A stretch of DNA of 21,263 nt. Origin: a virus. The translations under genes were made by a program, and so were the position numbers. The stretch spans positions 1 to 21,263 of the IMG/VR virus record IMGVR_UViG_3300044294_000263; one strand, written 5' to 3'. This document shows positions 1 through 21,159 of the stretch, one piece after another. Numbering within the stretch: the stretch's first letter is position 1; each line of letters starts with the position of its first letter. The notes beneath the pieces were generated by a model that saw only the letters and a program-made list of their open reading frames with translations, was not told where the DNA came from and searched no databases.

Positions 1-1730
1 ATACTAATATGCAAATAAATGAATCTTTTATAGATTCAGCAACACTCAGAGAAAATGTAGTATCTCTTGCAAGAAATATTGGTTATGTTCCTCGTTCAAA
101 AAAATCAGCAATATCAAAAATATCATTTACCGTAAACACCGTAAGGAACGAAGGTGGTATAATTTTAAAATCAAAAACAGTTACACTAAAAGCTGGAATT
201 GTTGCATTGGGTGCTTTACAATCTGGTAATTATATATTTTCAATTCCATCAGATGTAACTAAAACTGTTGATAATTTTGGTGTTGCAAATTTTAATGATT
301 TATCAATTTATGAGGGATCATATTTAACCAAATCATTTACAGTAGATAATAGTCAACCAAATGAAAAATATATTTTAGATAATCCAAATATTGATACTGA
401 TACAATTGTTGTAAATGTAATTTCAACATCAACTGAAAAATATGAACTTTATAAAAACATTTTTAATATCGATAAAAATTCTAAAATATTTTTAATACAA
501 GAAATTGATGATGAAAAATATGAAATTCTTTTTGGTGACAATTTATTTGGAAAGAAACCAACAAATGGTAGTAGAATAAATGTTTCTTATATTGTAACGA
601 ATGGAAAATCTGCGAACGGAGCATCTAATTTTACATTTTCTGGAAATTTAGTAGATAATAATGGAACCAATATCACATCTGGAGTTTCTCTGTTAACAAC
701 TATCTCACCCTCACAAAATGGTGATGACATCGAATCGATAGATTCAATCAAATATCTTGCACCAAGAATTTATGCATCTCAATATAGAGCAGTTACTTCA
801 AATGATTACACTAGTTTGATTCCATTTCTATATCCAAATGTAGAATCGGTAACTGCTTATGGTGGAGAAGAACTGGATCCACCCCAGTATGGGAAGGTTT
901 TTATTACCATAAAACCAAAAAATGGAGAATATTTATCTGAAGTTTCAAAAAATTCAATTAAAGAAGATCTAAAAAAATATACTGTTGCTGGAATTAAACA
1001 AGAATTTATAGATCTTAAATATCTTTATGTTGAATATGATTCGACAGTATCATATGATCCATCATTTATTTCAAGCCAAGAAAATTTATACTCTAGAATT
1101 TTAAAAACAATTGAAAATTATTCCAATTCTTCGGACATTAATTCTTTTGGTGGAAGATTTAAATATAGTAAATTTATCTCATTAATTGATAAAGTTGATA
1201 CAGGGATTACTTCTAATATCACTAATGTAAAAATGAGGAGAAATTTAATTCCAGCATATAATACTTTTGCAAATTATGAACTTTGTTATGCAAATAGATT
1301 TCATGCAGATATGGAAGGGTTTAATATTAAATCTTCATCATTTAAAATTAGTGGAATTACTGAAAATATATATTTAACCGATTTACCAGACAATAATGAA
1401 ATAACTGGAAAGATTAGGTTTTTTATCTTAGAAAACAATATTCCAAAATTTATCAACAATAATGCAGGAACAGTAAATTATAAAAAGGGAGAAATTATAT
1501 TATATCCAATTATGATTGAATCTTCTTCTCTTGATAATAAAATTGAAATAGAAGTTATTCCCGAATCAAATGATATTGTTGCAAGAGAAAATCTTTATAT
1601 AGTTATAGATATATCATCAATCAGTAAATTGACTCTTATTGAAGATTTGATAGCATCTGGATCAAACCGTTCTGGGTCATCCTATGTTACACCATCAAGT
1701 TTTATCAATAATAAAAAATATACGAGATAA
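1..1730 (+). CDS. 6: Baseplate wedge protein gp6 (5' end outside window)
   Basis: This is the T4-type baseplate wedge subunit gp6, which in T4 forms the inner ring of the baseplate that links the wedges around the hub. The frame is already open at base 3, and the codons before the first visible ATG (base 9) read T-N. In marine T4-like gp6 proteins the stretch NESF-DSATLRENVVSLARN (here at about 18-77) lies some tens of residues inside the protein and follows 'YNTNM', so the ATG at 9 is an internal methionine and the true start is upstream. Other landmarks are GDNLFGKKPTNGS (about 535-575), the core 'APRIYASQYRAVTSNDY' (about 759-810) followed by GGEELDPPQYGKV (about 861-900), and a beta-rich C-terminus. 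The visible part has 575 codons; T4 gp6 is about 660 residues, so roughly 50-90 residues are missing. Assignment rests on recalled family motifs and on the downstream gp8. Confidence 0.93.
   Translation, partial: TNMQINESFIDSATLRENVVSLARNIGYVPRSKKSAISKISFTVNTVRNEGGIILKSKTVTLKAGIVALGALQSGNYIFSIPSDVTKTVDNFGVANFNDLSIYEGSYLTKSFTVDNSQPNEKYILDNPNIDTDTIVVNVISTSTEKYELYKNIFNIDKNSKIFLIQEIDDEKYEILFGDNLFGKKPTNGSRINVSYIVTNGKSANGASNFTFSGNLVDNNGTNITSGVSLLTTISPSQNGDDIESIDSIKYLAPRIYASQYRAVTSNDYTSLIPFLYPNVESVTAYGGEELDPPQYGKVFITIKPKNGEYLSEVSKNSIKEDLKKYTVAGIKQEFIDLKYLYVEYDSTVSYDPSFISSQENLYSRILKTIENYSNSSDINSFGGRFKYSKFISLIDKVDTGITSNITNVKMRRNLIPAYNTFANYELCYANRFHADMEGFNIKSSSFKISGITENIYLTDLPDNNEITGKIRFFILENNIPKFINNNAGTVNYKKGEIILYPIMIESSSLDNKIEIEVIPESNDIVARENLYIVIDISSISKLTLIEDLIASGSNRSGSSYVTPSSFINNKKYTR
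1724..1727 (+). promoter_or_regulatory. Weak Shine-Dalgarno (GAGA) for the giant gene
   Basis: GAGA lies 6 bases before the ATG at 1734, inside the last codons of gp6. It is the only recognisable Shine-Dalgarno-like core upstream of any start in this window. The gp6 stop and this start are separated by just three bases (TAA AAA ATG), so translational coupling from gp6 is also plausible. Confidence 0.4.
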
Positions 1731-1733
1731 AAA

Positions 1734-4700
1734 ATGGAAAAAAATAAAGTTAAAATTTCAAATATTTTAGATAGTCAAATACCAAATTTCATTAAAGAAG
1801 ATAATCCCCTATTTAAAGAATTTTTACTTCAATATTTTATTTCAGAAGAACGCAAATATGGATCAATATATTTATCTGAAAATATTTCTTCTTATAAAAA
1901 TATTTCTACATATTCTGACATAAATTTTTTATTATCACCAACAATTTTATTAAATGATATAACTTCATTTGATGATACGATTGTTGTTCATTCTTACATA
2001 CCCAATGTAAACGCAACTATTGGGTTTCCAAATACATATGGGCTTTTAAAAATTGATGATGAAATAATTACATATACAGGGATCACCACAAATTCATTTA
2101 CTGGTTGTATTCGTGGTTTTAGTGGAGTAGATAAAATTGAAAGTAATAATGATCCAGAGTTTTTATCATTCAACATTACAAATTCAGGAGAACATTTTTC
2201 TGGGGCAAGAGTTGAAAATTTAAGTTTTATTTATCTTTCAAAGTTTTATCAAAAATACAAATATCTTTTTATTCCAGGATTTGAAAATAGAAACTTTAAA
2301 GAAAATTTATCTGTTGAGAATATTCTATCGAGAGCAAGAGATTTTTATTCATCAAAAGGAACGGATTCGGCATTAAAAATTCTTTTTAGTGTTCTTTTTG
2401 GTAAAGATGTAGAAATTATCAAACCATTTGATAATACAATTGTATCATCTGATTCAGAATGGAGTGTTTCTTATGAGATGATTGTCGAATCTATTCAAGG
2501 AAATCCACTAAATTTAAAAAATTCAACAATTTTAAAAGATTCAGTAAATTCCCCAACAGCAAGTGGGGCAGTTTCAAACGTTGAAGAAATTTTTCTTGAA
2601 AATAAAAAATACTATAAAATATATATTTCAAAAAATACTCTCAACGGAAATTTTGAAATAAACAATAAAACAAAAATAATTGAAATCGGAACCACATTAT
2701 CAACAGTAACAGTTGATTCTACAGTTGGATTCGCTCCATTTGGATCATTTTATTATTATGATTCAATTAATGGTTACAAAGAAGTAACATATCAATCAAA
2801 ATCCTATAATCAATTTTTTAATTGCTCTGGAATATCTACTTTCATAACAGAGAATAGTTCAATAATTCAAAATAATTTTATTTATGGATATGAGAAAAAT
2901 AATAAAAATAATATTTGCATAATGAGAGTGGTTGGATCTATCTCTAATAATTTAAACAGAAATGAATCTACAAAATATTTTTTACCTGAAGATAAAATTG
3001 GGTTAAAATATCTTGGAGAAAAAACTCCAATTGAAGATAAAAAATTTAATAAATGGTTTTATAATAATGTTTCATATATTGATGTCTTTATTGTGGACCC
3101 TTCGACGAATACAATTACAACAAAAGATTATCATTTTTTATATCAAGGCGATAAAATTGATATTATTCAAAAATCAAATAACAAAACAGTATATAATAAT
3201 GTTATTGTATCTAAAATTATAAGTGAAACAAAATTTCAAGTAAATTCTGAAACTTTAGAATTAAATGTTGATTATATAATTAAAAAAAGATTAAAATATA
3301 TTTCTAGTAATTTAAATTTAGGTGATCTACTGTCAGATGTTCAAAATTCATTCGTAGATAAAGATAAAAATACTTATATTATTTTCTCTGGATATCCATC
3401 TTATCCTGGACTAGAAACAACAGATAGATCAAAAACATTTAAATCGAATGAAGCTTCATCGAATATTATATCAATACAAAATCATAACTTTTTAAACGGA
3501 GAAAAAATATATTACAATTCTTTATCTAATGAAAGTGGAATAACTGGTTTGTCAAGTGGTTTTTATTATGTTAAAAAAATTAATAATGATGAATTATCTT
3601 TATCATTAAATAGATCAAATTTATTTAATGATAAAATCGAAAAATTTAATGGAAAGAAGGAAGATGGAGATGATTTACATAAAATTATAAGTTCCAATTT
3701 ATCATTTAAAAACTTAAAAAATCAAAATAATTTTAAAAGGATATATAAAACTCCAAAAAATAAAGAAACATTCTCAAATATAGTTGGACCAATAGGAGTT
3801 TTATTGAATGGTATAGAATTACATTCTCCAATATCTGAGGATTCCGTATTTTATGGTCAAATTGAAAAAATTAATATTCTCAATTCAGGAAAAGATTATG
3901 ATGTAATTAATCCTCCTGATATTTTAGTTGATGATAATTTTGGTTCATCGTGCGAGGCATATGCCCATTTGTCTGGAGGAATTTCAGAAATAATATTAGT
4001 ATCTCCTGGGTTTGATTATATAAGTACACCTTCAGTAACAATATCTGGAGGTAATGGAACTGGTGCTGAATGTGAAGCAAAAATGAAAAGCTTCAAACAC
4101 AGTGTATCTTTTTCAAATAATTTTGTAGATTTATCTAGTAATACATTTTCTTTAAATTTTGATCATAAATTTTTAGATGGAGAAGAAGTAATTTATACTT
4201 CTGATGGTCTACCTATAGGTATTGGAAGTACTAATGTTGGTTATTCTACTTCTAGATTATCAAATGGTGGAACATATTATATTGCTAAAATTAATAATAA
4301 AAAATTTTCTATTGCTACAACAAAAAAAAGAGCATTAGAAAAAACAAAATTAATTGATTTTACTTCATTTGGCAATAAGACGAATATATTCACTTCTACA
4401 AAATTTAGGAAAATTATCGATAGAATTATTATTAAAAATCCTGGAAATTTTTATTCAAACAATAAAGTTGTCATTTCATCTCAATTATATCCACCACAAA
4501 ATGTTAAGGATATATTTAAAACTTTTGTAGGAATTAATACTTATGATAATTACATTTATGCAAAAAATCATAACTTTAATGATGGAGAAATTATAAAGTA
4601 CTCTTGTGAAGGAACTCCAATTGCTGGTTTGTCCACTTCTCTATATTATAAAGTTACGTCTATTGATAAAAATAAATTTAAATTAAGCAGTGTCGGAACA

Positions 4701-7700
4701 GCAACGAGCATAAATGATGAAAATTATAAAAATAAAGTATATGTAAATATTGAAAGTATTGGTATAGGAACTCATATATTCAATTATCCGCCAATCATTG
4801 TAAATATTACTGGACCAATTGGAATTGCTAGTACAGAAAAACCTTCTTATTATGAATCTACTGCTTATGCAACAGTAAAGGGAAAAATAAATAATATATT
4901 TGTAAAAAATGGTGGAATTGGCTATGGTGTAACAAATATCATTAATTACATTCGAAGACCAATAGTTACTTTAAAAACTGGTAGCAATGCGACAATACAA
5001 TCAATTATCAATAAAATAGGTGAAATAAGTGAAATATTTATAGTAAACTCTGGAGAAAACTACACCTCACCTCCATCTTTAGAAATAATTGGTTCTGGAA
5101 ATTATGCAAAACTAAAGGCAAATGTTTTTGATGGAAAAATTATATCCGTAGATATTCTCAATAGGGGAAATGGTTATTTTCAAGATAATACTTACATTAA
5201 AGTTATTCCTACAGGAATAGGAGCAATATTTAGCGCAGATATTTATGAATGGAAAATTAATCAGGTAGAAAGATACAAAACAATTTTAAATGATGAAATA
5301 TATAAAAATACTCTCCAAATAAAATCAGGAATAGAAGAAAAAGAAAATAAAATTTGTTCTTTTTATTGTCCAAAAGAAATACGTAAAATATTAAATGATA
5401 ATTTAGATCCAAATACTTTTGAAGACCTCGATGAGTTACAAATTCATTCACCAATTATCGGTTGGGCATATGACGGAAATCCAATTTATGGTCCATATGG
5501 AAATGCAAAAGGAATTCCGGATGAATTTGGAACTGGTGGTTTAAAGAGAATTGTATCTAGTTATTCCATCGACCCTTTGGATGATATTAATCTAAGACCA
5601 TCTGCATATGTTCCTGGTTACTTTATTGATGATTATATCTATAAAAATGATGGAGATTTGGACGAGTATAATGGAAGATTTATAGTCAATGGAGATTTCC
5701 CAAATGGAACATATGCTTATTTTTCTACTTTAGATTCCAATAAAACACCACAATTTCCTTATATAACATATAAACATCGAAATGAAAGTGATCTATTTAA
5801 CTATGATAAACTTAAAAATCAATCTGATTATTATTTAAATACCGGAGAGTATAAAAGAAATATTACTCCATTAGGATTAAATGAAGAAAATAGAAAATAT
5901 CCATTTTTATCTGATTCTTTAAATTCAAAAATAAATTTAAAAATAAAAGATATAAAATATTCTGGAATTTCTTCAATATTTGTAGAAAATTCAGGAGAGA
6001 ATTATAATGTTGGTGATAAAATTAATTTTAGTAATAATTTTTCAATAGATTGCGTAGTTGATGAAATTTTAGGAAAAAATATAATATCAATAGATACAAC
6101 GGAAACGATATTAAATGACTTAGTTTTTTCTATCAATGATAATAGAGTAACTGCGTTTAGCACTAATCCTCATAATTTTTTTGATGGTGATATTATCAGT
6201 ATAACTGGAATTTCTTCTGCAATTTATAAAAATATAGAAGGTGTAAGAGTAATTGGTGTTAATACGATATCTTCACTACTTTCAGTTTCTATTGGAAATA
6301 CAGGAGATACTGGAATTTCCACTTTCGTTTCCCTATTTGAACCAACATCGAGTGGAAATTTTTTAATAAATGATTTAATTCAAATTGGAAGTGAAAAGAT
6401 GCTTATCGTAAATATCGATAACTACAATAACAGATACAGAGTAATAAGAGAATATGACCAATCTGTAGGGAGTTCTCACACTCAAGGAAAATTTGTAAAA
6501 AAACTCCCAAGACAATTTACATTTGATATCAATAAAAAAATAGAAAATAAAAATATAACAATAAACAATTATTATTATTTTGATGCTGCAAAATCTGTTG
6601 GAATTGGATATAGTTATACCAATGTAATTGTTGGAAATTCTGGAAATTCTAACATAAGAAAATCAATTCCACCCAGAGCAATATACTTAGAAAAACACAA
6701 TTTTAAAACAGGAGACATATTATCTCTCGTTTCGGTTGGTGGAACAATTTTAGCTTCAAATGATTCTTCGTTAACATCATCTTTTAATTTATCTAAATTT
6801 TTAAATCTTTATTGTGTAAAGTTAAGTGATGATTATATAGGAATTTCTACAGAAAAAATTGGATTTACTACTTCTTATGTTTATTTTGTTTCTGCTACTG
6901 GAAAAAATCATAAGTTTGAAAATATTTCTAATCAAATTTCTGGTAGTGCAAAAAAAATAAATTCAATTATAACTCTAGATTCTCAACATAATTTAAAGAA
7001 AAATGATGTTATTAAATTGAATATTAAACCAAATAAAATTCAAACTTTTAATTTTGAATATAACAATAATATTAAAAAATTAATTGTTGATAAAGTTTCA
7101 TTTGCATCTACAGCAGTTGGTGTTGGTTCTGGTTTTTCTACTATTAAAATCAATAATCACGGATATGAAACTGGAGATGTTGTAATTTATAATTCAAATG
7201 ATCCAATAATACCTTTGAAAAACAATGGGATTTACTACATAATAAAAATTAGTGATGATTTACTTAAAATCGCAGAAAATAAATACAATTCGACTAAATT
7301 TCCATACGAACACATAGGGATAACTTCATATGGATCAGGAAGTCACCAAATAGCAAAAATAAATCCAAGAATAAAAATCTATAGAGGAAATACAGTATCA
7401 ATTGCTGTATCTGATTCCAGTTTAACTGATTATAGAGTTAATTTTTACATTGATAATAAATTCAAATCAAAGTACGAATCTCCATTAATTCAATATAAAG
7501 GAAACTTTGGAGATGGAAATTCAAATACAAGAATTTTAATATCCAATTCAGAATCTCTTCCAAATCTGTATTACAGAATTGAAGGAAAAAATTTAAATTA
7601 TACTAATACTTATCCATCATCAACAAATGAAGAAGTTTCAAATTATTCTCAAATTGAATTTTTAGATTCTAAATTAAATGGAAATCATAGAGTTTCTGGA

Positions 7701-10700
7701 GTTGGAAGTACTACAATTACTATTAATTTAAAAGAAGATGTAGAATCTTTATCATATAATCTAAATGGATTTTCTACTTGTTTTTATTCGTCATCATCAA
7801 AAACAGAAAAAGGTGGAATACACTCAGTAAAAATAATAAATCCAGGAAAAAACATTAATAAACTTCCATCAATATTATCAGTAGGTTCAACTACTGGATC
7901 ATTTGCAAATCTTTTTGTAGATTCTAATGATATTGGACAGATATTAGATGTTGATGTTTTGTCTCAAGGTGTAGAAATACCAAATGATAAAACATTAACA
8001 CCAAAAGCAGATACATATACAATATTAAGACTAAAAGATATTTACACATTATCTTCAATTGGAATTATAACTGGAGGAAAAAATTATACGTCACCACCAA
8101 AAACAATTGCGATCGGAAATAATTCAATTTTAACTAAAACATCAATTTCTGGAAATTCTGTCTCAGATGTCGAAATAATATCAAACGATAGTGGCATATC
8201 AAATAATATTAGATTTATTCCAACCAATAATTCAAATGGAGTCAATATTATCAATGCTACATCTTCATTTCAAGTCAATACGATTTTTTTACGAGCACCA
8301 GTAATTGGATTTTCTGAATTTCCATTTGAAATTGGAGATAAAATTTATGTAGAAAATGTCAAAATAATTAGCAATGATGATGGTTACAATTCAAGTGATT
8401 ATAATTACCAATACTTTACTGTTACTAGTATTAATACTACGCCTGGAACAGAAAGTGTTTCATATTCAATTTCTGGAATTGGAAGTACTGGAGGAGTTTA
8501 TGATATTAACTATACTTTTGGAAGAGTTATTAAAGCAAATGATTTGTCTTCTTATTCTCCAAGTTTTAAACCTGTTGAATTTTTTGAAGGAGAGAAAATT
8601 TCTCAAATTAATGGATCTTCTTATGGATATGTTGCAAAAAATGGATGGGACAAAGAGTCCAATACATTAAAACTAGAAAAAGTCAAAGGTAAATTTGAAA
8701 AAAATAAAAAAATAATTGGTTCTATTGGAAATAACAAATCAACTATAGAAAATTTTTATGAATTTGATTTTGATTTGATTCCTAATTCATTATTTTTAAA
8801 ATCAAAAACTTGGTTGACCGATAAAGGAAAACTCAATCTAAATGAACAAAGATTGCAAGATAATGATTATTATCAAAGATTTTCTTATTCTATTAGAGGA
8901 GAAGTTGATTATGAATCATGGAAAGAACCAATAAAAAGCTTAACACATATATCTGGATTTAAAAACTTTTCAGACTATGAAATATTAAATGGTGTTGGAA
9001 ATACTGTGATTATTAAAGAAAATGATTCTCAAATTGATCTTACAGTTGAAATTTTAGGACAAGCATCTGTTTATGATAAATTATATTATGATTTGGCATC
9101 TGAAGATACAAGTGATCAAACGTTATCAAAAATTATAAAATTTGATTCAAAGGTAATCACCGATTATAATGAATCAAGAACCAATAAAGTTCTTTTGATT
9201 GATGATATAAGTTCTCAATTTTCTGGGGTTGTTACACCTATTGGTGGAAAAGTAATAGGTCTAACAACATTTGCACTTTATACATCAGGTGATAGATTAT
9301 TTCATAAAAATTTTGATCCTGCGGAGATAAACACATCGACTTCGATTATTACAATTTTAAATCATAATTTTAATACTGGAGAATCACTAACATATTTGCC
9401 AAATGATGGATCTTCAATTGGTATTGAATATACATATGTTTCTGGAATTGGTTTTACTACATTATTACCAAAAAATGTTTATGCAATTAAAATTTCAAAT
9501 GATTCTATAAAATTAGCAATAGGAAAAATAGAGGCAATTTCCGGAACTGCAGTGTCATTTACTTCTGTGACCGGAATTGGATCCACTCATTCATTATCGG
9601 TAGAAACAAATCTTGCCACAAGTAGAGTTTTAATATCAATTGATAACATTTTGCAAAGTCCTATTTCCAAAAAAGATATTTCTGTTTCACTTATTTCTTC
9701 TGTTGGTATTGGATCGACTATAATTTATCTTAATAATATTTCAAGTATTCAAGGAAATTCTTTAATTAAAATTGATGATGAAATATTAAAAGTCAATCTT
9801 GTTGGTATTGGTTCAACTAATGCTTTAGATGTCAATAGAAGTTATATGGGAACAGTTGCCGTTGCTCATACTATTGGAGCAGTAGTAACAATTCTATCTG
9901 GAGATTATAGAATAGAAAGTGGAAATATTTATTTTTCTGATCCTCCTTATGGACCACCTAGGATTAATTCTTTAACAACAAAATCAATATTTCATGGGAG
10001 AGCATTTTATAAACTAAATTATGATAAAAACTATATATTTGATGATATTTCAGAAAATTTTAACAGTTCAAGAAAAAACTTTGATTTAAAATCAAATGGA
10101 CAAATTTTGTCTGGAATTCAATCTAACTTTGGAGTAGTTTTGGTTAATAATATTTTCCAAAGACCTTTTTATGGTGATGTTGGTTCAATTTTAGAATCTG
10201 ATTATAAAGTTGTAGGAACTGGAGAAACAATAACATTTACAGGGACATTAGAGAATAAAGATCTCCCGAAAGGTGGAATTATCAATGAATTTACAGTTGG
10301 TTTAGGAAGTGGTTATCAAATTCCAAAGAGAGCATATGGATATGCAGTAGTTTCTTCTGCTGGAACAATACAATCAATAGGAATTTCTACTAGTGGGTCT
10401 GGATATAGATTTAATCCCAAAGTTTCAATCGCAGACACTTTGGGAGTTGGTATTGGTGCTTCTATAGTATCATCAATATCTAATGGTTTGGTAACTTCAT
10501 TTTCAATAGTAAATCCAGGAAGTGGATATACAAATACAAATCCACCATTAGTTATAATTGATGATCCTTCTCCATATACTAATTTACCTTTAAGTGGAGG
10601 AACTGGATCAAATGCGACTATGAATGTAGTTGTTGGAACTGGAGGAAGTGTGATATCATTTGATATTGAAAACAGTGGGTACGGGTATTCTATTGGGGAT

Positions 10701-12023
10701 GTTCTTTCTCTGACTGGTATTCCTTACCAGGTTGGTATTGGAACTTCTGCGTTTAATATAACTGTAAAAAATAGATATCAAAATAAATTTTCTGGATGGA
10801 TATTTGGACAACTTTTAGAATTGGATGATTTTAGTAATCTTTTTAATGGTTTTAGAAAAACATTTTTACTCACAAGAACTATTGTCACGAAAGAGTATTA
10901 TAGTATTGTTTCACAAAAAAATTCTGGTATTATTCTTTCGAATAATCTTTTAATTTTTATAAATAATGTCTTACAAAGACCAAATATAGATTATATTTTT
11001 ACTAGTGGGACAAGATTAACATTCAGAGAAGCACCAAAGTTTCAAAGTAAATTAAAAATATATTTTTATACTGGTTCCCTTGAAGATTTTGTTGAAGTTA
11101 ATACTGATCAAACAATTAAACCGGGAGACAGATTAAGATTACAAGAAAAAAATAATATTCCATCTCAAGAAGAAAGAATAATTTACGAATTAATTGCTTC
11201 CGATACTATAGAGACACAAACTTACAATGGAATTGGAATTGTTAATGACAGTTCATTTTTAAGACCAATTGCTTGGTCTAAGCAAACTTCTGATATTATT
11301 ATTGATGGTGAACCGATTTCAAAACAAAGAGAATATCTTGAACCAAAAATTTTCCCAAATACAAATATTATCGCATCTGTTGATTCAACGAGTTCAAAAA
11401 TTTATGTAAAGAATACTTATCCAATTTTTAAAAATATTGATGATTTAAGCCAAACATTAAATGACATTCAAATAGTTGGGTTGGGTACTACAGCAGTTAC
11501 TGAAGTAATAAAAAAAGTTAGTTATTCTGGTGATTATGGGGTTATTGTTGGTATTAGTACAAGTGCAACTGGAATTGGAACAACTTCCCCAATGTTGATT
11601 TTTAACATAAAACCAAATGTTAACATTACTAATAATGTAAGTAGACCAGGAATTACCACTGGAGATTATTTTGTTATTGAAAATTCAATTATTGGAAATG
11701 GTGTAACATCGATCAAAAATAATACATCAGAAATTGTTTCGATTGGAAACAGTTTTATTGATAATGTCTACTATGCAAATCACATTGTTTCAATTGGTTC
11801 ATCTTCCCTTCGTGTTTATTCTAACATTTTATCGTTAAATGGCATAGATACATCATCTCTTCCTTTAAATTTATCAAATTATGGAACTTATACTTGGGGT
11901 ATAATTAATTGTTCCAGGAATTCAAATTCAAAATCATTTGAATTTTACAATCAAAATGGGTTATTAGGAATCGAAACGTCTGCTTACGTATCAAGATTAC
12001 TTCAATTAAAAGCATCATATTAA
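1734..12023 (+). CDS. Giant modular virion structural protein at the gp7 position (YHYH-like domain, multiple repeat families)
   Basis: This 3,429-residue protein sits between gp6 and gp8, where T4 encodes gp7 (1,032 residues), so a wedge or peripheral baseplate role is inferred from position. Residues 1 to about 260 resemble the N-terminus of large virion proteins of marine T4-like phages: NPLFKEFLLQYF, then IDDEIITYTG with CIRGFSG (2022-2126), then FYSSKGTDSALK and VEIIKP. The middle and C-terminal parts carry nine HNFxxGD-type repeats, about nine SGxGYxxPP-type repeats, and three 'INNVLQRP' modules. A YHYH-like domain lies at residues 1237-1348. The last ~500 residues include LLIFINNVLQRP, LRPIAWSKQT and KQREYLEPKI, also familiar from cyanophage structural proteins. 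It is rich in Asn, Ser, Gly and Ile and shows no signal peptide or obvious membrane segment. The 10.3-kb frame is uninterrupted, which argues strongly that it is real. True homology to T4 gp7 cannot be shown by eye. Confidence 0.88.
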   Translation: MEKNKVKISNILDSQIPNFIKEDNPLFKEFLLQYFISEERKYGSIYLSENISSYKNISTYSDINFLLSPTILLNDITSFDDTIVVHSYIPNVNATIGFPNTYGLLKIDDEIITYTGITTNSFTGCIRGFSGVDKIESNNDPEFLSFNITNSGEHFSGARVENLSFIYLSKFYQKYKYLFIPGFENRNFKENLSVENILSRARDFYSSKGTDSALKILFSVLFGKDVEIIKPFDNTIVSSDSEWSVSYEMIVESIQGNPLNLKNSTILKDSVNSPTASGAVSNVEEIFLENKKYYKIYISKNTLNGNFEINNKTKIIEIGTTLSTVTVDSTVGFAPFGSFYYYDSINGYKEVTYQSKSYNQFFNCSGISTFITENSSIIQNNFIYGYEKNNKNNICIMRVVGSISNNLNRNESTKYFLPEDKIGLKYLGEKTPIEDKKFNKWFYNNVSYIDVFIVDPSTNTITTKDYHFLYQGDKIDIIQKSNNKTVYNNVIVSKIISETKFQVNSETLELNVDYIIKKRLKYISSNLNLGDLLSDVQNSFVDKDKNTYIIFSGYPSYPGLETTDRSKTFKSNEASSNIISIQNHNFLNGEKIYYNSLSNESGITGLSSGFYYVKKINNDELSLSLNRSNLFNDKIEKFNGKKEDGDDLHKIISSNLSFKNLKNQNNFKRIYKTPKNKETFSNIVGPIGVLLNGIELHSPISEDSVFYGQIEKINILNSGKDYDVINPPDILVDDNFGSSCEAYAHLSGGISEIILVSPGFDYISTPSVTISGGNGTGAECEAKMKSFKHSVSFSNNFVDLSSNTFSLNFDHKFLDGEEVIYTSDGLPIGIGSTNVGYSTSRLSNGGTYYIAKINNKKFSIATTKKRALEKTKLIDFTSFGNKTNIFTSTKFRKIIDRIIIKNPGNFYSNNKVVISSQLYPPQNVKDIFKTFVGINTYDNYIYAKNHNFNDGEIIKYSCEGTPIAGLSTSLYYKVTSIDKNKFKLSSVGTATSINDENYKNKVYVNIESIGIGTHIFNYPPIIVNITGPIGIASTEKPSYYESTAYATVKGKINNIFVKNGGIGYGVTNIINYIRRPIVTLKTGSNATIQSIINKIGEISEIFIVNSGENYTSPPSLEIIGSGNYAKLKANVFDGKIISVDILNRGNGYFQDNTYIKVIPTGIGAIFSADIYEWKINQVERYKTILNDEIYKNTLQIKSGIEEKENKICSFYCPKEIRKILNDNLDPNTFEDLDELQIHSPIIGWAYDGNPIYGPYGNAKGIPDEFGTGGLKRIVSSYSIDPLDDINLRPSAYVPGYFIDDYIYKNDGDLDEYNGRFIVNGDFPNGTYAYFSTLDSNKTPQFPYITYKHRNESDLFNYDKLKNQSDYYLNTGEYKRNITPLGLNEENRKYPFLSDSLNSKINLKIKDIKYSGISSIFVENSGENYNVGDKINFSNNFSIDCVVDEILGKNIISIDTTETILNDLVFSINDNRVTAFSTNPHNFFDGDIISITGISSAIYKNIEGVRVIGVNTISSLLSVSIGNTGDTGISTFVSLFEPTSSGNFLINDLIQIGSEKMLIVNIDNYNNRYRVIREYDQSVGSSHTQGKFVKKLPRQFTFDINKKIENKNITINNYYYFDAAKSVGIGYSYTNVIVGNSGNSNIRKSIPPRAIYLEKHNFKTGDILSLVSVGGTILASNDSSLTSSFNLSKFLNLYCVKLSDDYIGISTEKIGFTTSYVYFVSATGKNHKFENISNQISGSAKKINSIITLDSQHNLKKNDVIKLNIKPNKIQTFNFEYNNNIKKLIVDKVSFASTAVGVGSGFSTIKINNHGYETGDVVIYNSNDPIIPLKNNGIYYIIKISDDLLKIAENKYNSTKFPYEHIGITSYGSGSHQIAKINPRIKIYRGNTVSIAVSDSSLTDYRVNFYIDNKFKSKYESPLIQYKGNFGDGNSNTRILISNSESLPNLYYRIEGKNLNYTNTYPSSTNEEVSNYSQIEFLDSKLNGNHRVSGVGSTTITINLKEDVESLSYNLNGFSTCFYSSSSKTEKGGIHSVKIINPGKNINKLPSILSVGSTTGSFANLFVDSNDIGQILDVDVLSQGVEIPNDKTLTPKADTYTILRLKDIYTLSSIGIITGGKNYTSPPKTIAIGNNSILTKTSISGNSVSDVEIISNDSGISNNIRFIPTNNSNGVNIINATSSFQVNTIFLRAPVIGFSEFPFEIGDKIYVENVKIISNDDGYNSSDYNYQYFTVTSINTTPGTESVSYSISGIGSTGGVYDINYTFGRVIKANDLSSYSPSFKPVEFFEGEKISQINGSSYGYVAKNGWDKESNTLKLEKVKGKFEKNKKIIGSIGNNKSTIENFYEFDFDLIPNSLFLKSKTWLTDKGKLNLNEQRLQDNDYYQRFSYSIRGEVDYESWKEPIKSLTHISGFKNFSDYEILNGVGNTVIIKENDSQIDLTVEILGQASVYDKLYYDLASEDTSDQTLSKIIKFDSKVITDYNESRTNKVLLIDDISSQFSGVVTPIGGKVIGLTTFALYTSGDRLFHKNFDPAEINTSTSIITILNHNFNTGESLTYLPNDGSSIGIEYTYVSGIGFTTLLPKNVYAIKISNDSIKLAIGKIEAISGTAVSFTSVTGIGSTHSLSVETNLATSRVLISIDNILQSPISKKDISVSLISSVGIGSTIIYLNNISSIQGNSLIKIDDEILKVNLVGIGSTNALDVNRSYMGTVAVAHTIGAVVTILSGDYRIESGNIYFSDPPYGPPRINSLTTKSIFHGRAFYKLNYDKNYIFDDISENFNSSRKNFDLKSNGQILSGIQSNFGVVLVNNIFQRPFYGDVGSILESDYKVVGTGETITFTGTLENKDLPKGGIINEFTVGLGSGYQIPKRAYGYAVVSSAGTIQSIGISTSGSGYRFNPKVSIADTLGVGIGASIVSSISNGLVTSFSIVNPGSGYTNTNPPLVIIDDPSPYTNLPLSGGTGSNATMNVVVGTGGSVISFDIENSGYGYSIGDVLSLTGIPYQVGIGTSAFNITVKNRYQNKFSGWIFGQLLELDDFSNLFNGFRKTFLLTRTIVTKEYYSIVSQKNSGIILSNNLLIFINNVLQRPNIDYIFTSGTRLTFREAPKFQSKLKIYFYTGSLEDFVEVNTDQTIKPGDRLRLQEKNNIPSQEERIIYELIASDTIETQTYNGIGIVNDSSFLRPIAWSKQTSDIIIDGEPISKQREYLEPKIFPNTNIIASVDSTSSKIYVKNTYPIFKNIDDLSQTLNDIQIVGLGTTAVTEVIKKVSYSGDYGVIVGISTSATGIGTTSPMLIFNIKPNVNITNNVSRPGITTGDYFVIENSIIGNGVTSIKNNTSEIVSIGNSFIDNVYYANHIVSIGSSSLRVYSNILSLNGIDTSSLPLNLSNYGTYTWGIINCSRNSNSKSFEFYNQNGLLGIETSAYVSRLLQLKASY
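2022..2126 (+). repeat. 'IDDEI..Y/RG' beta module, copy 1 (gene 2 N-terminus)
   Basis: The module reads GLLKIDDEIITYTG, a short spacer, then FTGCIRGFSG. The pattern G-x-L-x-I-x-x-E-I-I-x-Y followed by a turn and R-G recurs in many phage tail proteins. Two more copies occur here: 9753-9896 in the same gene (IKIDDEILKV ... RSYMGTVAVAHTIGAVV) and 19839-19970 in the DUF4815 gene (LQINSEIISYNS ... ASRGIDSSLKSNHP). Each is preceded by a hydrophobic beta-like stretch. Confidence 0.6.
3129..9524 (+). repeat. Dispersed H-[N/G]-[F/Y]-x-x-G-[D/E] repeat family, nine copies inside gene 2
   Basis: Nine segments share a His-(Asn)-Phe-x-x-Gly-Asp/Glu start, a short hydrophobic strand, a variable loop often containing 'GL/GI', then a 'YY-[IV]-x-K-I-x-x-x-x-[FL]-x-[IL]' strand pair. 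Approximate copies: 3129-3248 (YHFLYQGDKI), 3474-3608 (HNFLNGEKIYY), 4161-4319 (HKFLDGEEVIY), 4566-4691 (HNFNDGEIIKY), 6168-6290 (HNFFDGDIISI), 6693-6851 (HNFKTGDILSL), 6984-7025 (HNLKKNDVIKL, short), 7155-7283 (HGYETGDVVIY) and 9360-9524 (HNFNTGESLTY). The copies are divergent, indicating old duplications. The pattern resembles 'HGLxTGDxVxY ... GLxxGxxYYV' repeats of large bacterial surface adhesins and other marine phage structural proteins (recalled, not searched). Confidence 0.7.
5442..5777 (+). other. YHYH-like domain within gene 2 (residues 1237-1348)
   Basis: The segment begins HSPIIGWAYDGNPIYGPYG and continues through a Gly-rich loop, 'YVPGYFIDDYIY', 'DLDEYNGRF' and 'FPNGTYAYFST', and ends 'YITYKH'. 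The combination of G-[WY]-A-x-D-G-x-P-I-Y-G-P and P-N-G-T-Y-x-Y-F is the hallmark I associate with the YHYH domain family of bacterial and marine phage proteins. The usual His in 'GTYHYF' is Ala here. The family's biochemical function is not established to my knowledge. The domain is embedded in a structural protein, so a virion role is inferred. Confidence 0.7.
9624..11075 (+). repeat. 'I-x-[IV]-[ND]-N-[VI]-[LF]-Q-[RS]-P' module, three copies in gene 2
   Basis: Three segments share a strand ending in 'NNVLQRP'-like residues: 9624-9689 (RVLISIDNILQSP), 10134-10247 (VVLVNNIFQRP, then YKVVGTGETITFTG) and 10947-11075 (LLIFINNVLQRP, then YIFTSGTRLTFREAP). The second and third copies also share the following 'Y-x-[VF]-x-[GS]-G-[ET]-x-[IL]-T-F' strand, so they are full-length paralogous modules; the first keeps only the front half. 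This pattern is common in tail-fibre and baseplate-associated proteins of marine myoviruses. Confidence 0.65.
9753..9896 (+). repeat. 'IDDEI..Y/RG' beta module, copy 2 (gene 2 C-terminal part)
   Basis: This copy reads SLIKIDDEILKV, then NALDVNRSYMGTVAVAHTIG and AVVTIL. The 'G-T-x-A-x-x-H-x-x-G-A-x-V' ending is the classical form of this phage tail module and is more complete than in the N-terminal copy. Confidence 0.65.
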
Positions 12024-12047: not shown

Positions 12048-13610
12048 ATGCCCGCTATAATTACTGATCAATTTAGAATATTAAATGCTGAAACTTTTGT
12101 TAAAAGTTTTACAGGAATAGGAACAACTACAAATTATTATTATACATTTTTAGCACATCCAAATCCAACTAATACTACAATCGAAAATTATGGAATTTCT
12201 TCATGGAATTCCAATCCACCAGAACCAAGAGACTCATTTCAACAAGAAAATTTATATTTTGATAGTATGCTTTTTTTAAAAAAAGTAAACTATGATGATA
12301 TTTCTAGAGTCATTCCTAGATATGATTGGGAATCCGGAATAATTTATGATATGTATAGAAATAATTATGATATTAGTAATCCTGCGCCACAAACTGATTC
12401 AAAAACTCTATATGACTCAAGATATTATGTTGTAAACTCTTCGTATAAGGTTTATATTTGTTTAAATAATGGAGAAAATCCAGAGTATCCAAAAGGACAA
12501 AAATCAGTAAATGAACCAAACTTTGTGGATTCAAACCCTCAGCAAGCTGGTGATGGTACTGATGGTTATCTGTGGAAATATCTCTATACTATTACTCCAA
12601 AAGAAATTATAAAATTTTCTACAAGCAATTATATTCCTGTTCCAAAAAATTGGAGCGATTCAGAAACAGAATCAATAAAAAATACAGCAATAAATGGAAA
12701 AATTGAAACAATTATAATTAAAAACAGAGGTTCTGGATATGCAATTCCCGGAGGAGAAACTACTGGTACAATTTCAAATATACCAATCATAGGTGATGGT
12801 TCTGGTGGATTTGCTTCTGTTACAATTAATGGTGGAGAAATAGATACAGTTCAAGTAACGAACGGAGGAACAGATTATACTAGAGCATTTATAAAATTTG
12901 GGTATGGTTATAGTGAAACACCAGATATAACTTCTGGATCTGGAGGAGTTTTTGAGGTCATAATACCACCCAAGGGTGGTCATGGATACGATATATATAG
13001 AGAACTTGGTTCTTATAGAGTTATGGTTTACTCTAAATATGAATCAGAATCTGATTATGTGATTGGAAATGATTTTTCTCGTGTGGGAATAATAAAAAAC
13101 CCAACAATTTATGGAAGTCAAAATCAACCAATAAATAGTTTTACTGCAACTAATCTTGGAGCATTAAAATTGAAACCAGTTGGTTCTGGAAACATTTCGG
13201 ATACTTTTTATCCAAACAACTCATTAATTACTCAAAATATTGGAGTTGGATCAACTGCAATTGGATATGTTGCATCATGGAATCAAAATACAGGTATTTT
13301 GAGATATTATCAACCAGTAGGTCTTTCTACACTTTTTGGAGGAAAAAATCTTTTTAATTTTGTCGGTTATGCATCAACTATAAATTGCTCAAATATAACT
13401 GGATCCGCATTGATTGTAGATACAAATTTTTCAGGTGATGTAATACAAATTGGTGGAAAAAATATTAATTTAGGGCAATCTTTTACTTCTGGAATATCAA
13501 ATCCAGAAATTAAAAAATATTTTGGAGAAATCATTTATATTGATAATAGAGCACCAATAACAAGATCTTCATCACAAAAAGAAGAAGTAAAAATCGTAGT
13601 AGAATTTTAA
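12048..13610 (+). CDS. 8: Baseplate wedge protein gp8
   Basis: This is the T4-type baseplate wedge subunit gp8, which in T4 is a dimer bound on each wedge with gp7 and gp10. The start MPAIITDQFRILNAETF matches the usual N-terminus of marine T4-like gp8 proteins, fixing the ATG at 12048. Other family landmarks are DGTDGYLWKYLYTI (around 12553-12594) and PPKGGHGYD, with GGHGYD at residues 310-315, followed by ELGSYRVMV. The protein has 520 residues against 334 in T4 gp8. Part of the extra length is a Gly-rich insertion of SGxGY-type repeats at 12699-12947. No Shine-Dalgarno is visible before the start, and a TATAAATA late promoter box lies 14 bases upstream. The stop is followed after six bases by the DUF4815 gene. 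No frameshift or truncation is apparent. Confidence 0.93.
   Translation: MPAIITDQFRILNAETFVKSFTGIGTTTNYYYTFLAHPNPTNTTIENYGISSWNSNPPEPRDSFQQENLYFDSMLFLKKVNYDDISRVIPRYDWESGIIYDMYRNNYDISNPAPQTDSKTLYDSRYYVVNSSYKVYICLNNGENPEYPKGQKSVNEPNFVDSNPQQAGDGTDGYLWKYLYTITPKEIIKFSTSNYIPVPKNWSDSETESIKNTAINGKIETIIIKNRGSGYAIPGGETTGTISNIPIIGDGSGGFASVTINGGEIDTVQVTNGGTDYTRAFIKFGYGYSETPDITSGSGGVFEVIIPPKGGHGYDIYRELGSYRVMVYSKYESESDYVIGNDFSRVGIIKNPTIYGSQNQPINSFTATNLGALKLKPVGSGNISDTFYPNNSLITQNIGVGSTAIGYVASWNQNTGILRYYQPVGLSTLFGGKNLFNFVGYASTINCSNITGSALIVDTNFSGDVIQIGGKNINLGQSFTSGISNPEIKKYFGEIIYIDNRAPITRSSSQKEEVKIVVEF
12699..12947 (+). repeat. SGxGY-type repeat insertion in gp8
   Basis: Two to three units occupy about residues 218-300: IETIIIKNRGSGYAIPGG, IDTVQVTNGGTDYTRAF and GYGYSETPD, with Gly-rich turns between them. 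They match the repeat family in the preceding giant gene and sit immediately before the conserved GGHGYD segment, so they look like a surface insertion in the gp8 fold. Confidence 0.7.
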
Positions 13611-13616
13611 AAAAAA

Positions 13617-16600
13617 ATGACTCAGAATACCAATTTAAACGTTTCTCCATATTTTGATGATTTTGATGAAAATAAAAATTATAAAAGAGTTTTATTTAAA
13701 CCTGGTTATCCAATTCAATCAAGAGAACTTACTACTTTACAATCAATATTACAAAATCAGGTAGAAAAATTTGGTCAATATTTTTTTAAAGAAGGATCTG
13801 TAGTAATTCCTGGTGGAAGTTTTTATGATGACAGATATTATTCTGTAAAAATAAATCCATTCTTTTTAAATATACCAGTAAATCAATACACAAGATATTT
13901 GTCCGACAATGAAATAAAAATTAAAGGAGAAACATCTGGAGTTACTGCAACTGTCGTAAACATAATCACCAATGTAGAATCAGAGCAAGGGTATGATACT
14001 CTTTATGTAAAATACACTTCCTCCGGAAATGATGGAGAAACAAAAACATTTCAAGATGGAGAAAATTTAATAACTTTATCTGATATTAATTATTCTATAT
14101 TTAATATTCCTGCAAATAGTTCTTTCGCACAATGTATTTCCGACAATTCAACGGACATAGGATCTTCTGCTTCAATAAATGAGGGGATATATTTTATTAG
14201 GGGATTTTTCGTAAAAGTCGAAAAATCAACAGTAATTCTTGATCAATATTCGAATACACCAACTTATAAGATTGGTTTATTAATTTCTGAAGAAATTGTT
14301 ACTGCATCTTCAAAAAATAATGATCTATATGACAATGCAAAAGGATTTTCAAACGAATCTGCACCAGGAGCAGATAGATTTAAAATTTCCGCAACTTTAC
14401 ACAAAAAACCAATTACGGATCAAAGTGATAATGATTTCGTAGAATTAATCAGAGTAGAAAATGGAATTATTAAAAAATTTGTAAATGAAAAAACAGATTT
14501 TAATATTTTTAAAAATGAATTGGCAAGAAGAACATATGATGAGTCTGGGGATTATTATGTGAATCAATTTTCAATTGATGTTAGGGAATCGTTAAATGAT
14601 AGAATTTCAAATAGAGGAATATATTTCGAAAATCAATTAACTCAAAATGGAAATACCCCATCTGATGATATATTCGTTCTTCAAGTTTCTCCAGGAAGAG
14701 CTTATATTAGAGGATTTGAAGTCGACAAACTATCTACTTCTTCTATTGACATCTTAAAGCCAAGAACTACAAAATCTAAAAATAATATAAGTTTACCAAT
14801 AAAAATTGGTAATATTGTTAAAATTAATAATTTAGTTGGATCACCAAAAATTGGGTTTTCTACAACTTATACTATAAGTCTTTTGGATAGAAGACTGACA
14901 AACAAACAAATCGGTTCTGCAACAACCATTGGAGTAGCAAGAGTTTTTGATTTTAATCAAAAAAATATTTCAGGAGTTTCTACTACCCAATACGAAATTA
15001 GATTATTTGATATTCAAACCTATACGAATTTAACTATTGGTTTTGGTATAACAGCAACAGAAGATTCTCACATAAAGGGACAATATAGTGGTTCTACTGG
15101 ATATTTAAAAAAATCAGTCTCAAATGGAAAAATATTGATCGTATATAATTCGAAAGGTGAATTTCAAATTAATGAGCCATTGATTATTAATGGCATAAAT
15201 GTAGGAAGAAATATTTCTTCAATTCGAGATTATGATTTCTCTGATATAAAATCCGTTCATAGTATCGTAGGAGTATCTACTTTTGCTGCTGATTTAGTTC
15301 TTGATAATAAAAACAAATTATTTTCTGAAGCAAGTCAATTTACAATTTCTTCTACAGGAAAAGTAACGTCACCAAGTGTTTCTGATTTTTCTTCTTTAGT
15401 AAAAATTGGAGACATTGTTCAGTATTCAATTCCTGGATTTAGTACTGCGACTTTTAATAGAGTAACATCTGTTAATAGAAATGAATTAAATTTAACTTCG
15501 GTATCAACAGTTTTGGGAGTTTGCGAAGGTAATATCCCACAATCAGACCAAAATATAATTGATTTTGATGTAGTTATACCTTATTTAGAAAAATCAAATG
15601 ATCCTGGTTATATAATTCCACTACAAAATGACTATGTATCTTCAATAAATGTTTTAGATTCAACTTATATTATAAGAAAACAAATAACAAAAAATATTAC
15701 AGGGTCAACATTTACCTTTCATTTGAGTGATTTTGGTGACAATGATTTGTACTTTGAGCCATATTCAGAAAATAATTATATTTTAACATGGGAGACCGGA
15801 GAAAAAGAAGTAATATTAGACACTCAAGTATCTTTCAGTCTAGATTTGAGAGAAATGACAATATCTGGATTATCCAGAACCGGAAATGCTACTATTACTT
15901 TTATATTAAAAAGATCAAAACTTTCATCTAAAGAAAAGACATTAGTAAGATGTAGTTCCCTTATTATAAATAAATCAAAATTTCAAGGGTCTGGAATTGA
16001 ATCAACAACTTTTAGTGATGGTTTGACATATAGTCCAAAATATGGAACAAGAGTACAAGATGATGAAATATCTTTAAATGTTCCCGATGTGTATAGAATT
16101 TTAGGAATTTTCGAATCAAATAATATAGAGGAACCAAATTTACCATCAATTATTGTATCCTCACAGTCAGATACTTTTACAAATAATGTAATAGTTGGAG
16201 AAGAATTTATTGGAAATAGTTCCGGATCTATTGCTCGTGTGGTAAAAATCGTTAGTGGACAACAATTGGAATTTGTATATGAAAATGAAAAATTTTTTGA
16301 TATTGGAGAAACTATAACTTTAAAATACTCCGGAATTATTGCAAATATTAGTTCTTTGATTGTTGGTGATAGAAACATTGCACAAAATTATAATTTGGAC
16401 AGTGGTCAAAGATTAGAATATGTTGATTATGGAAGAATTATAAAAAAGAAAAATATATCAGATCCGACAAGAAAACTTAAAATTATTTTTGATTATTATT
16501 CTAACAATGAAAATAGTGGAACAATAGAAACAATCAACAGCTATAATTCTCTTAATTATTCTACAGAAATACCGTCTGCATTTAATAAAAGATCTTCTGA

Positions 16601-19600
16601 TTTTATTGACATAAGACCAAGAGTTATCGAATATTCTAATAATAATACAAATTCTCCATTTTCTTTTTCTTCTAGAATTTTTTCAAATTCTTCGTCTGAA
16701 ACTCTTGTATCAAATACGACCATGATTGCTGACTATGAATATTATCTTGGAAGAATCGATAGATTATATTTGACAAAAGATGGGACATTTGAAGTTAAAA
16801 AAGGAGAACCATCAGACAATCCAAGGTCCCCAACTCCAAATGAAGAGGCATTTGAAGTTGCATTAATAAAAATGAATCCTTATATGATAAATGCAACTAA
16901 TGATTGCTCAATACAGATAATTCCACATAAAAGATATACAATGAATGATATTGGAAATCTTGAAAATAGAATTAAATCTCTTGAAAATTATACAACACTC
17001 TCTTTACTTGAATCTGATACTAGAAATTTAAGTATAAAAGATCCAAATACCGGATTAGACAAATTCAAATCTGGTTTCTTTGTTGATAATTTTAGAAATC
17101 ACAATTCTCACAATTTAACAGGTGAATCATATTTTGATATTGATATGACAACTGGAGAATGTAGGCCAAGATCTACAGAAAGAAATGCTGGATTAATTTT
17201 TGAAACTATTTCGTCAAAATTAAATCCAATAACTGCAGATTATCGTTGGATTGAGGATTTTGAATCTCCCAATATCACAAGGAAAGGGTCAGGATTGACT
17301 CTTGCATACAATGAAGTTAATTTTGTTTCTCAAGAATTGGCCACAAGAACAGAAAACTTAAATCCTTTTCATATTGCACTTTATGCAGGAAGTATTGAAA
17401 TTACCCCATCTTCTGATTTTTGGATAGAAGAAGTTTCCCTTAGTACACCAGATGTAGTGAAAATTGATTCTGTATTTAATGGAATGGCAAGTCTTCTTGG
17501 TGTAGAAAACCGTGAAAATGGGGGAATGGCAGCAAGTTATTGGAATTCTCACGAGACAACTTGGACGGGAAGAGAATTAATTAAAGAAGAATTGACTGAT
17601 AGTGAACTTATTGCGTCTACATCTTCATCTCAAGTTCTTAGAGGTGGAGGAGTAAGAGAAATCACTACGAGAAATGATACATTATCAAATGATTATTTAC
17701 AAATATTTGAAGAAACCGGAACAGATAAAGTATTTGGTATCGAATTGTCCTCTAGTGAAGAAAGAGTAAGCCTTGGAAATAGAGTAATTGGTGTGGATAT
17801 TTTATTTAATTGCAGATCCAGAAATATTGAAGTAGTTGGAAAAAGACTAAAACCAAATACAAAATATTATGTTTTTATGGAAAACACAAATATGACTGAA
17901 TATTGTGTACCAAAACTTCTTCCAGTCTCAATGACGAGAGGATCCTTTTCCACCTCGGACATTATTGATACTTCTACTACAAATCAAATTCCAGGAATAT
18001 CAAAAATAAGATTTAGAACAGCGCAAACAAATCATAAATTTGGACCATACAATAATCCAACAGACATATACAAAACAGAACCATATAGTTTAACAAATTT
18101 AACATCTTCATATTCAGGATCAAGTAATATAATAAATGTAGACACAGCAGGTCTTGCATATCACACAACACCCGATCATTTGGGATGGGTAAGAAAAGGA
18201 ATGGTTCTTGTCAATACACAAGGAACTGCAGAAGCAATTGTGAATGACTTGCAATTAATTAGTGACGAAAAAGGAAATTTAATTTTTTCATTACATATTC
18301 CTGATCCGAAAATAAAAAGTAATCCAAAATTTACTACTGGTTTAAATACGATAAGAATTACTACAAGTCCAATAAATTCAAATCAATTAAGTCCAGGAGA
18401 AAGTTCCGCGGAGGCAATATATAATGCTTCTGGATATTCTCAGAGCACTCAAGAACAGACTCTTTCTATTAAAACTCCAGAAATTGAAAGAAAACAAATT
18501 GGTTCCGATCAACCAGTAACAAGAATCTCTCAAAATATTGAAAACAGAATAGAAACAAGAACTACAACATCAGATACTGGTTGGTATGACCCAATCGCAC
18601 AATCATTCTTAGTCGAAAGGGACAAATATCAAGATGGTGTTTTTGTAACTGGAGGTGAAGTTTATTTCAAAACCAAAGATGATAATATTCCAGTGACAGT
18701 TCAAATTAGAACTATGAGAGATGGTTCTCCAACCACTACAATAGTTCCATTTGGACAAACAAATATCAACCCAGAAGATATATTACTTTCAGATAATGGG
18801 AGTGCTCCTACTAAATTTAGTTTCTCAACTCCAGTATATCTTCAAACTGGATACGAATATGCTTTAGTTCTTGCTACTCCCACAAGTAAATATCTCACAT
18901 TTATAACAAGAATGGGAGAAGAAGATTTAATATCAGGTTCTATAAGTAATAGACAACCATATCTTGGATCATTATTTAAATCCCAAAATAGTTCAACTTG
19001 GGATCCAAGCCAGTTAGAAGATTTGAAGTTTAAATTATTTAAAGCAAAATTTGTAACGAATACTCCATCTAGTTTTATTATGTACAACCAAGAATTACCT
19101 CTTGGTTCTATTCTCAAAGAAAACCCTGTAATTTCTTATTCGAAAAGACAATATGTATCAATTTCAAACACATCAATAACTTTTGGACAAGGAAATACCA
19201 TATTACAATCGACAAATTCCGCAAATATATTCTCTTCTGGTGGTCCAGTCAGTTTGGGCACTACATCATTGACTCTCGCATCTTCTGGAATTGGTCTGAC
19301 GGATGGAATTTATTCTGGTATAGGATTCACTTCTCTTGTTGGATTTGGAAATTCTTGTGTTGCGACAATTACTATTTCTGGTGGATCTGTAACTCAATTT
19401 AATGTCACTTCAGGAGGAACTGGTTACTCTGTTGGGGATTTATTACTTACAAATAAAATTGGTAATACTGGAACAGGTATAAGAGCAATTGTTGGAATAG
19501 TAACACTGACAAATCTTTTAGTATTAGACAATGTAGTATCAAATATAGATACTAGTTCTGAATTGACTTATTATAATTCATCTGGATCTTTATACAATAT

Positions 19601-20879: not shown

Positions 20880-21159
20880 ATTTTTAAAAGTAGAATCTGA
20901 TTCAACTTTAGTTAGAGATTCTGATTCAAATGCAATTATTAATACAAATAAAAGTGAATTTGAAAAATTTTTGAATTTTTCAAAAATAAAATATAAAGAA
21001 AAAGAACAATTTGAAAATTTAAAGAAAGATTTGAATTTATTGAAAGAATCAAAATTAAAAGAAATAGAAAAAACAAAACAACTAGAAAATGATGTAAAAA
21101 ACATAAAAGAAGAAATAAAAGAAATAAAAAATCTCCTTAAATATATTGTAAACAAATGA
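20872..21159 (+). CDS. Small charged coiled-coil protein of unknown function
   Basis: This 95-residue protein starts inside the end of the DUF4815 gene, overlapping it by 8 bases in another frame (ATGAATAA). Residues 1-30 (FLKVESDSTLVRD, then NAIINTNKSEF) resemble the N-terminus of small uncharacterised proteins that I recall at this place in other marine T4-like phages. Residues from about 35 to 90 are almost entirely Lys, Glu, Leu, Ile and Asn with a heptad-like spacing, ending NVKNIKEEIKEIKNLLK-like, so a coiled coil is likely. There is no signal peptide, membrane segment or catalytic motif. Tight overlap with a structural gene suggests co-translation and a role as a minor structural or assembly protein, but no function can be assigned. 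The antisense frame over this gene is a compositional shadow. Confidence 0.75.
   Translation: MNKFLKVESDSTLVRDSDSNAIINTNKSEFEKFLNFSKIKYKEKEQFENLKKDLNLLKESKLKEIEKTKQLENDVKNIKEEIKEIKNLLKYIVNK

Follow-up and report, generated by a model that had tools for sequence, protein, structure and literature searches.

Gene content of the locus

The window, i.e., the whole stretch of DNA analysed here, is a viral fragment of 21,263 bases with 28% G+C. On its + strand it carries gp6, a giant ORF, gp8, VrlC, and a 95-aa ORF that overlaps the 3′ end of the VrlC gene, in this order (Table 1). The boundaries that the preliminary description gave for the giant ORF, and its length of 3,429 residues, were exact, from the ATG start to the TAA stop. 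Its placement in the gp7 slot also held, as the ORF is directly flanked by gp6 and gp8, and this slot order is kept in many relatives. Described as more than three times the length of T4 gp7 (1,032 aa), it is 3.3 times as long. Scans for promoters and terminators gave signals at chance level only.

Table 1. Position of the genes of the window and of the blocks, domains, and modules of the giant ORF
Feature	Position	Strand	Residues of giant ORF	Support and remarks
gp6, putative wedge partner	3..1730	+		PHROG wedge subunit, E 1.9e-167; truncated 5′ by the window edge
Giant gp7 orthologue (sequence-based)	1734..12023	+	1-3429	381 kDa; phrog_2885 wedge subunit, E 0 (residues 3-2497 on profile 7-2546)
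Trunk block N	1734..1916	+	1-61	15-107 bits; predicted helices (helices in model), putative core-bundle hairpin
IDDEI module	1965..2126	+	78-131	Small strand-rich insert between blocks N and A
IDDEI module, second copy			2655-2710
Trunk block A	2184..2750	+	151-339	phrog_964, hhalign, and fold search; T4 gp7 725-826
Insertion inside trunk	2751..8798	+	340-2355	Putative peripheral arm; A-to-B gap of 2,017 residues
HNF-turn modules, 8 copies	span 3465..9530	+	578-628, 804-865, 940-988, 1474-1518, 1649-1709, 1745-1793, 1803-1851, 2538-2599
GIxxI..GxGY modules, 9 copies	span 3849..10565	+	706-738, 747-776, 891-920, 1094-1124, 1132-1164, 1408-1438, 2107-2132, 2876-2905, 2925-2944
YHYH domain	5424..5747	+	1231-1338	PF14240, E 1.8e-19; within conserved region 5154-5915
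Trunk block B, LQDNDYYQRFSYSI...W...HISGF	8799..8996	+	2356-2421	T4 gp7 865-891 (weak)
Post-B tail, lineage-specific	8997..12020	+	2422-3429	1,008 residues
gp8	12048..13610	+		PHROG, E 4.5e-147; Pfam Phage-Gp8, E 2.4e-13
VrlC/DUF4815 protein, separate from gp7	13617..20879	+		2,420 aa; DUF4815, E 4.9e-56; phrog_358, E 0
Small structural-protein-like ORF	20872..21159	+		95 aa; phrog_473 (virion structural protein), E 3.6e-19

Similarity of the giant ORF to T4 gp7

We searched the whole record with phrog_964, the T4 gp7 family profile, and retrieved a single match (2319-2675, E 1.3e-9), which aligns residues 196-314 of the giant ORF to gp7 725-826. A separate gp7 elsewhere, together with no gp7 fold in this protein, had been proposed as the finding that would speak against the assignment. 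We looked for it within the 21-kb fragment and in the records of 13 relatives, and the T4 gp7 profile retrieved no second gp7 in the fragment or in the relatives' genomes. In the relatives, phrog_964 matched one site in 10 of 13 records, always in the slot ORF, and none in pf16, Mosig, and S-CREM2.

The HHpred-type comparison suggested in the preliminary description agreed with the profile search: hhalign of a 37-sequence alignment of the ORF N-terminus against a 7-sequence alignment of T4-type gp7 gave a probability of 96.9% (E 1.5e-10). Residues 140-333 alone retrieved T4-type phages by tblastn (best E 2e-4); among the matches listed, most of those with an annotation bore the name gp7 or baseplate wedge protein. 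The best short stretch, within block A, aligns SRARDFYSSKGTDSALKILFSVLFGKDVEI with T4 SRSYDFYSTKGIEASYKFLFKVLYNEEVEI (53% identity over 30 residues). Residues 10-208 of phiM12 gp7 also match phrog_964 (643-832, E 9e-7). With the full-length protein as query, phmmer gave no match among PDB sequences up to E 10.

For the fold comparison, residues 1-351 were modelled with AF2 without templates (pLDDT 64) and searched with Foldseek against 350,542 PDB chains. T4-type gp7 chains occupied ranks 1-3 (9f4a, E 4e-5; 5iv5, E 5e-5; 5hx2, E 5e-3), and the next chain was unrelated (E 0.045). Since superposition of the model on gp7 was poor overall (TM 0.18-0.19), we used the fold match by rank and E-value only. 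Given this superposition and the modest pLDDT, the ranking supports the gp7 assignment rather than proving it, and it is not an independent line because Foldseek uses sequence too.

Trunk blocks N, A, and B

We ran one profile per block (N, A, and B) against gp7-slot proteins from other phages, with gp6, gp8, VrlC, and others as controls. The N-A-B order was found in 14/14 non-T4-type gp7-slot proteins examined, including the giant ORF, with lengths from 482 to 7,124 aa. By length, the carriers were ACP17 (482 aa), Yut3 (503), pf16 (523), BUCT-ZZ01 (607), Cr30 (767), Mosig (874), Melnitz (896), phiM12 (1,007), S-CREM2 (1,937), S-SSM7 (3,007), the ORF described here (3,429), P-HM2 (4,454), P-SSM2 (5,195), and P-SSM7 (7,124). 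Block N was present in closed metagenomic ORFs too. None of the blocks reached the threshold in gp6, gp8, VrlC, or the other controls.

When searched in T4-type gp7, block A was clear (29-34 bits) and mapped to T4 gp7 729-758, and block N stayed below the threshold. Block B was weak (9.9-13.2 bits) and fell on the same site in 7/7 (T4 865-891), all of them above the best shuffled or reversed control (5.2 bits). This match is consistent only with the broader profile and the shuffle control; when block B was compared by itself with T4 gp7, the hhalign probability was 5.7%.

The core of the giant ORF is the gp7 trunk, formed by residues 1-339 plus 2356-2421. The protein had been described as arranged around a YHYH-like core: the YHYH match is real (PF14240), but the domain sits in the insertion, and we rejected it as the core because small relatives carry the trunk without YHYH.

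Considering the colinear trunk blocks, the conserved slot, and that no other gp7 was found in the relatives' genomes, the giant ORF is, as judged from sequence, the orthologue of T4 gp7. This is the first of the two alternatives put forward in the preliminary description, in which the ORF is itself the wedge protein and has a very large extension. The phrog_964 and hhalign results support it, as does, less firmly, the fold ranking. It is not T4 gp7 in the narrow sense: it lacks the N-terminal domains of ~640 residues, and the Pfam profiles Gp7_helical, Gp7_5th, and Gp7_6th had no match in it.

Insertion, repeat modules, and tail

The distance between blocks A and B was 102-107 residues in T4-type gp7, 113-751 in small relatives, and 1,624-2,605 in YHYH kyanoviruses, with 2,017 in the giant ORF. 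Wherever the YHYH domain is present it sits in this gap, and the giant ORF has one copy. The PF14240 match scored 70.9 bits (cut-off 25) and covers profile positions 86-187 of 193 only; in this region, 57/57 aligned relatives match. A model of residues 1141-1406 (5154-5951; pLDDT 74) gave no match in a fold search against the PDB. Against viral predictions, its significant named matches were YHYH or cyanophage structural proteins, and the viral matches include YHYH proteins of Mimiviridae and Megaviridae.

Regarding the repeats, the HNF-turn (8 copies) and GIxxI..GxGY (9 copies) modules were secure, with 0/51 shuffled or reversed controls at the 8-bit threshold. When the training copies were taken exclusively from other phages, the models still recovered 6 HNF-turn and 5 GIxxI..GxGY copies, with 0/101 controls. 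The IDDEI and NNVLQRP modules were less secure, and the model of NNVLQRP, the fourth module, did not generalise. Recognisable copies cover at most about one quarter of the chain; with the models trained on other phages, the coverage is 12%. Thus, of the proposal that the protein is built largely from at least four beta modules, the repeats remain, whereas "largely" is overstated.

In this window, gp8 has 520 aa vs. 334 in T4, and it bears a GIxxI copy at residues 217-232, so these modules may be common to several wedge proteins.

The tail after block B has 14-224 residues in small relatives, 15 in S-CREM2, 1,008 in the giant ORF, and 3,625 in P-SSM7, and it is mostly missing from S-SSM7-like and other relatives. 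The insertion is conserved lengthwise among kyanoviruses; the tail is strongly variable between lineages.

Coexistence of gp7 and VrlC

T4 gp7 has been reported as absent from pelagimyophages and cyanomyophages, apparently substituted by VrlC (PMC7029224), and comparisons from 2010 did not include gp7 among the genes common to cyanophages and other T4-like phages. The GenBank records of many cyanophages, however, already name gp7. If the published absence were right, VrlC would take the place of gp7 and the YHYH protein would be a receptor-binding protein merely situated between gp6 and gp8. We consider this extremely improbable. It is true that the N-terminal 640 residues of T4 gp7 are missing from the giant ORF, and the reported absence is understandable given that these peripheral domains are truly lacking and that the trunk is short. 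However, several methods detected the gp7 trunk in the giant ORF and not in VrlC. Moreover, VrlC (DUF4815) was present in 13/13 non-T4-type relatives, each with a gp7-trunk protein, and absent from T4 and KVP40, so it looks like an added component of the baseplate that occurs together with gp7, and no substitute for the trunk.

With a single gp7 in the slot and VrlC coexisting in relatives, the published substitution is unsupported, and the same applies to the suggestion that the gp7 function had been absorbed or replaced, since the gp7 trunk lies in this ORF.

The record of S-SSM7 (GU071098) names two nearby genes gp7 (SSSM7_101 and SSSM7_103); only SSSM7_101 adjoins gp6 and has a gp7 profile match.

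Potential role in the baseplate

Three wedges are known to be two-plus-one heterotrimers that contain a helical bundle and a trifurcation: (gp6)2-gp7 in T4, (gp16)2-gp17 in XM1, and (TssF)2-TssG in type VI secretion (PMC6300606, PMC10457771). By analogy with them, blocks N and A would join two gp6 chains as the third member of the core helical bundle and of the trifurcation, and block B would complete the trunk. Each wedge would have one gp7, and the baseplate six. Six giant copies add up to ~2.3 MDa (381 kDa each). The chain would depart from the trunk after block A and rejoin it at block B, and the ~2,000 residues in between would make up a long arm of modules that includes one YHYH domain; the tail behind block B would add a lineage-specific extension. 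The arm would most likely form the baseplate periphery, replacing the N-terminal 640 residues of T4 gp7; there it would position fibres and VrlC, and it probably contacts the host surface. As a whole, a gp7 orthologue with its trunk in the wedge and the A-B insertion as a peripheral arm is very probably the best explanation.

The function of the arm can also be read differently. It could be purely a scaffold for VrlC, fibres, and neighbouring wedges, with no host contact, which we find possible but somewhat doubtful. The lengthwise conservation of the insertion among kyanoviruses would fit a scaffold, and so would XM1, where flexible loops and the tail of the gp7 homologue hold spikes (PMC10457771, PMC6300606). 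On the other hand, a Bacillus phage has a wedge protein with carbohydrate modules that reportedly binds to the host surface (PMC11406892), and the strong variation of the post-B tail by lineage is expected of a host-facing part.

The giant form of gp7 is a real virion part in the relative S-CREM2: its ORF122 (1,937 aa), with the layout N-A-YHYH-B, was found in virions by mass spectrometry with 91 unique peptides (PMC10665884). This bears on whether the protein is a polyprotein, whose trunk would stay in the wedge and whose long modules would be released by cleavage and work at another site of the virion. The extreme and variable length, and a post-B tail that is dispensable between lineages, would suit such processing. 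We regard it as very unlikely, because the trunk is split and cutting out the insertion would separate block A from block B, and because the S-CREM2 copy was reported as one ORF (the positions of its peptides are not given).

Comparison with other gp7 proteins

For a giant gp7, the size of this ORF alone is ordinary, with relatives in hundreds of cyanophages, many of them annotated as gp7. The gp7 assignment is not new either, since many cyanophage GenBank records already have it; what is new here is the evidence for the assignment and the split-trunk layout. The kyanovirus giant gp7s (phrog_2885; S-SSM7, P-SSM2, and P-SSM7) share the slot and the N-A-YHYH-B layout, and they are similar to this ORF over the first 2,500 residues. 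Nevertheless, identity to the named cyanophage gp7s is only ~30-35% over the first 1,000 residues, and the tails behind block B are neither of the same length nor of the same content.

T4 gp7 (phrog_964; PDB 5IV5 and 5HX2) shares the gp6-gp7-gp8 order and matches blocks A and B. It has ~640 residues before the trunk and lacks the insertion, whereas the giant ORF starts with block N at residue 1. Hence the additions to gp7 stand before the trunk in T4, and inside and after it in these kyanoviruses. The small gp7s of Yut3, ACP17, and pf16 (phrog_26741 and phrog_17744) have the same slot and the three blocks in order, an A-to-B gap of 152-183 residues, and no YHYH domain; they are mostly annotated as hypothetical. 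The minimal gp7s of ~480-520 aa in T4-like phages of Stenotrophomonas, Acidovorax, and Pseudomonas (L171:7734-9245, L263:4001-5449, and L256:7947-9518) are annotated as hypothetical.

Among simpler contractile systems, XM1 gp17, TssG, and P2 gpI are the published gp7 equivalents in the two-plus-one wedge (PMC10457771, PMC6300606). Block A of the giant ORF matches TIGR02242 weakly (E 1.7e-4, below the curated cut-off), and XM1 gp17, with only 242 residues, lacks such an arm.

Overall, gp7 is likely to be general in T4-superfamily baseplates, with a small trunk of ~480 residues, its short linker included, as the socket. T4 would add to it in front, and kyanoviruses would insert ~1,600-2,600 residues, including YHYH, between blocks A and B as an out-and-back arm, the protein ranging from ~480 to > 7,000 residues with its core kept. 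The proteins compared show one wedge protein with a ~15-fold length range around a fixed trunk. What we find of most interest is that a very large insertion divides the trunk and that the published gp7 absence is corrected, which resolves, for abundant marine phages, the disagreement between GenBank (gp7 present) and the published comparison (gp7 absent, VrlC as substitute). The defined block boundaries can be used in structural work, and the kyanovirus baseplate periphery is the thing to image.

Finally, phrog_701, phrog_4406, phrog_3465, and phrog_460 are matched by this ORF (trunk or arm) and by small gp7s. Several of these families are labelled as head and packaging, virion structural protein, or head closure Hc2, and look like misannotated wedge proteins.
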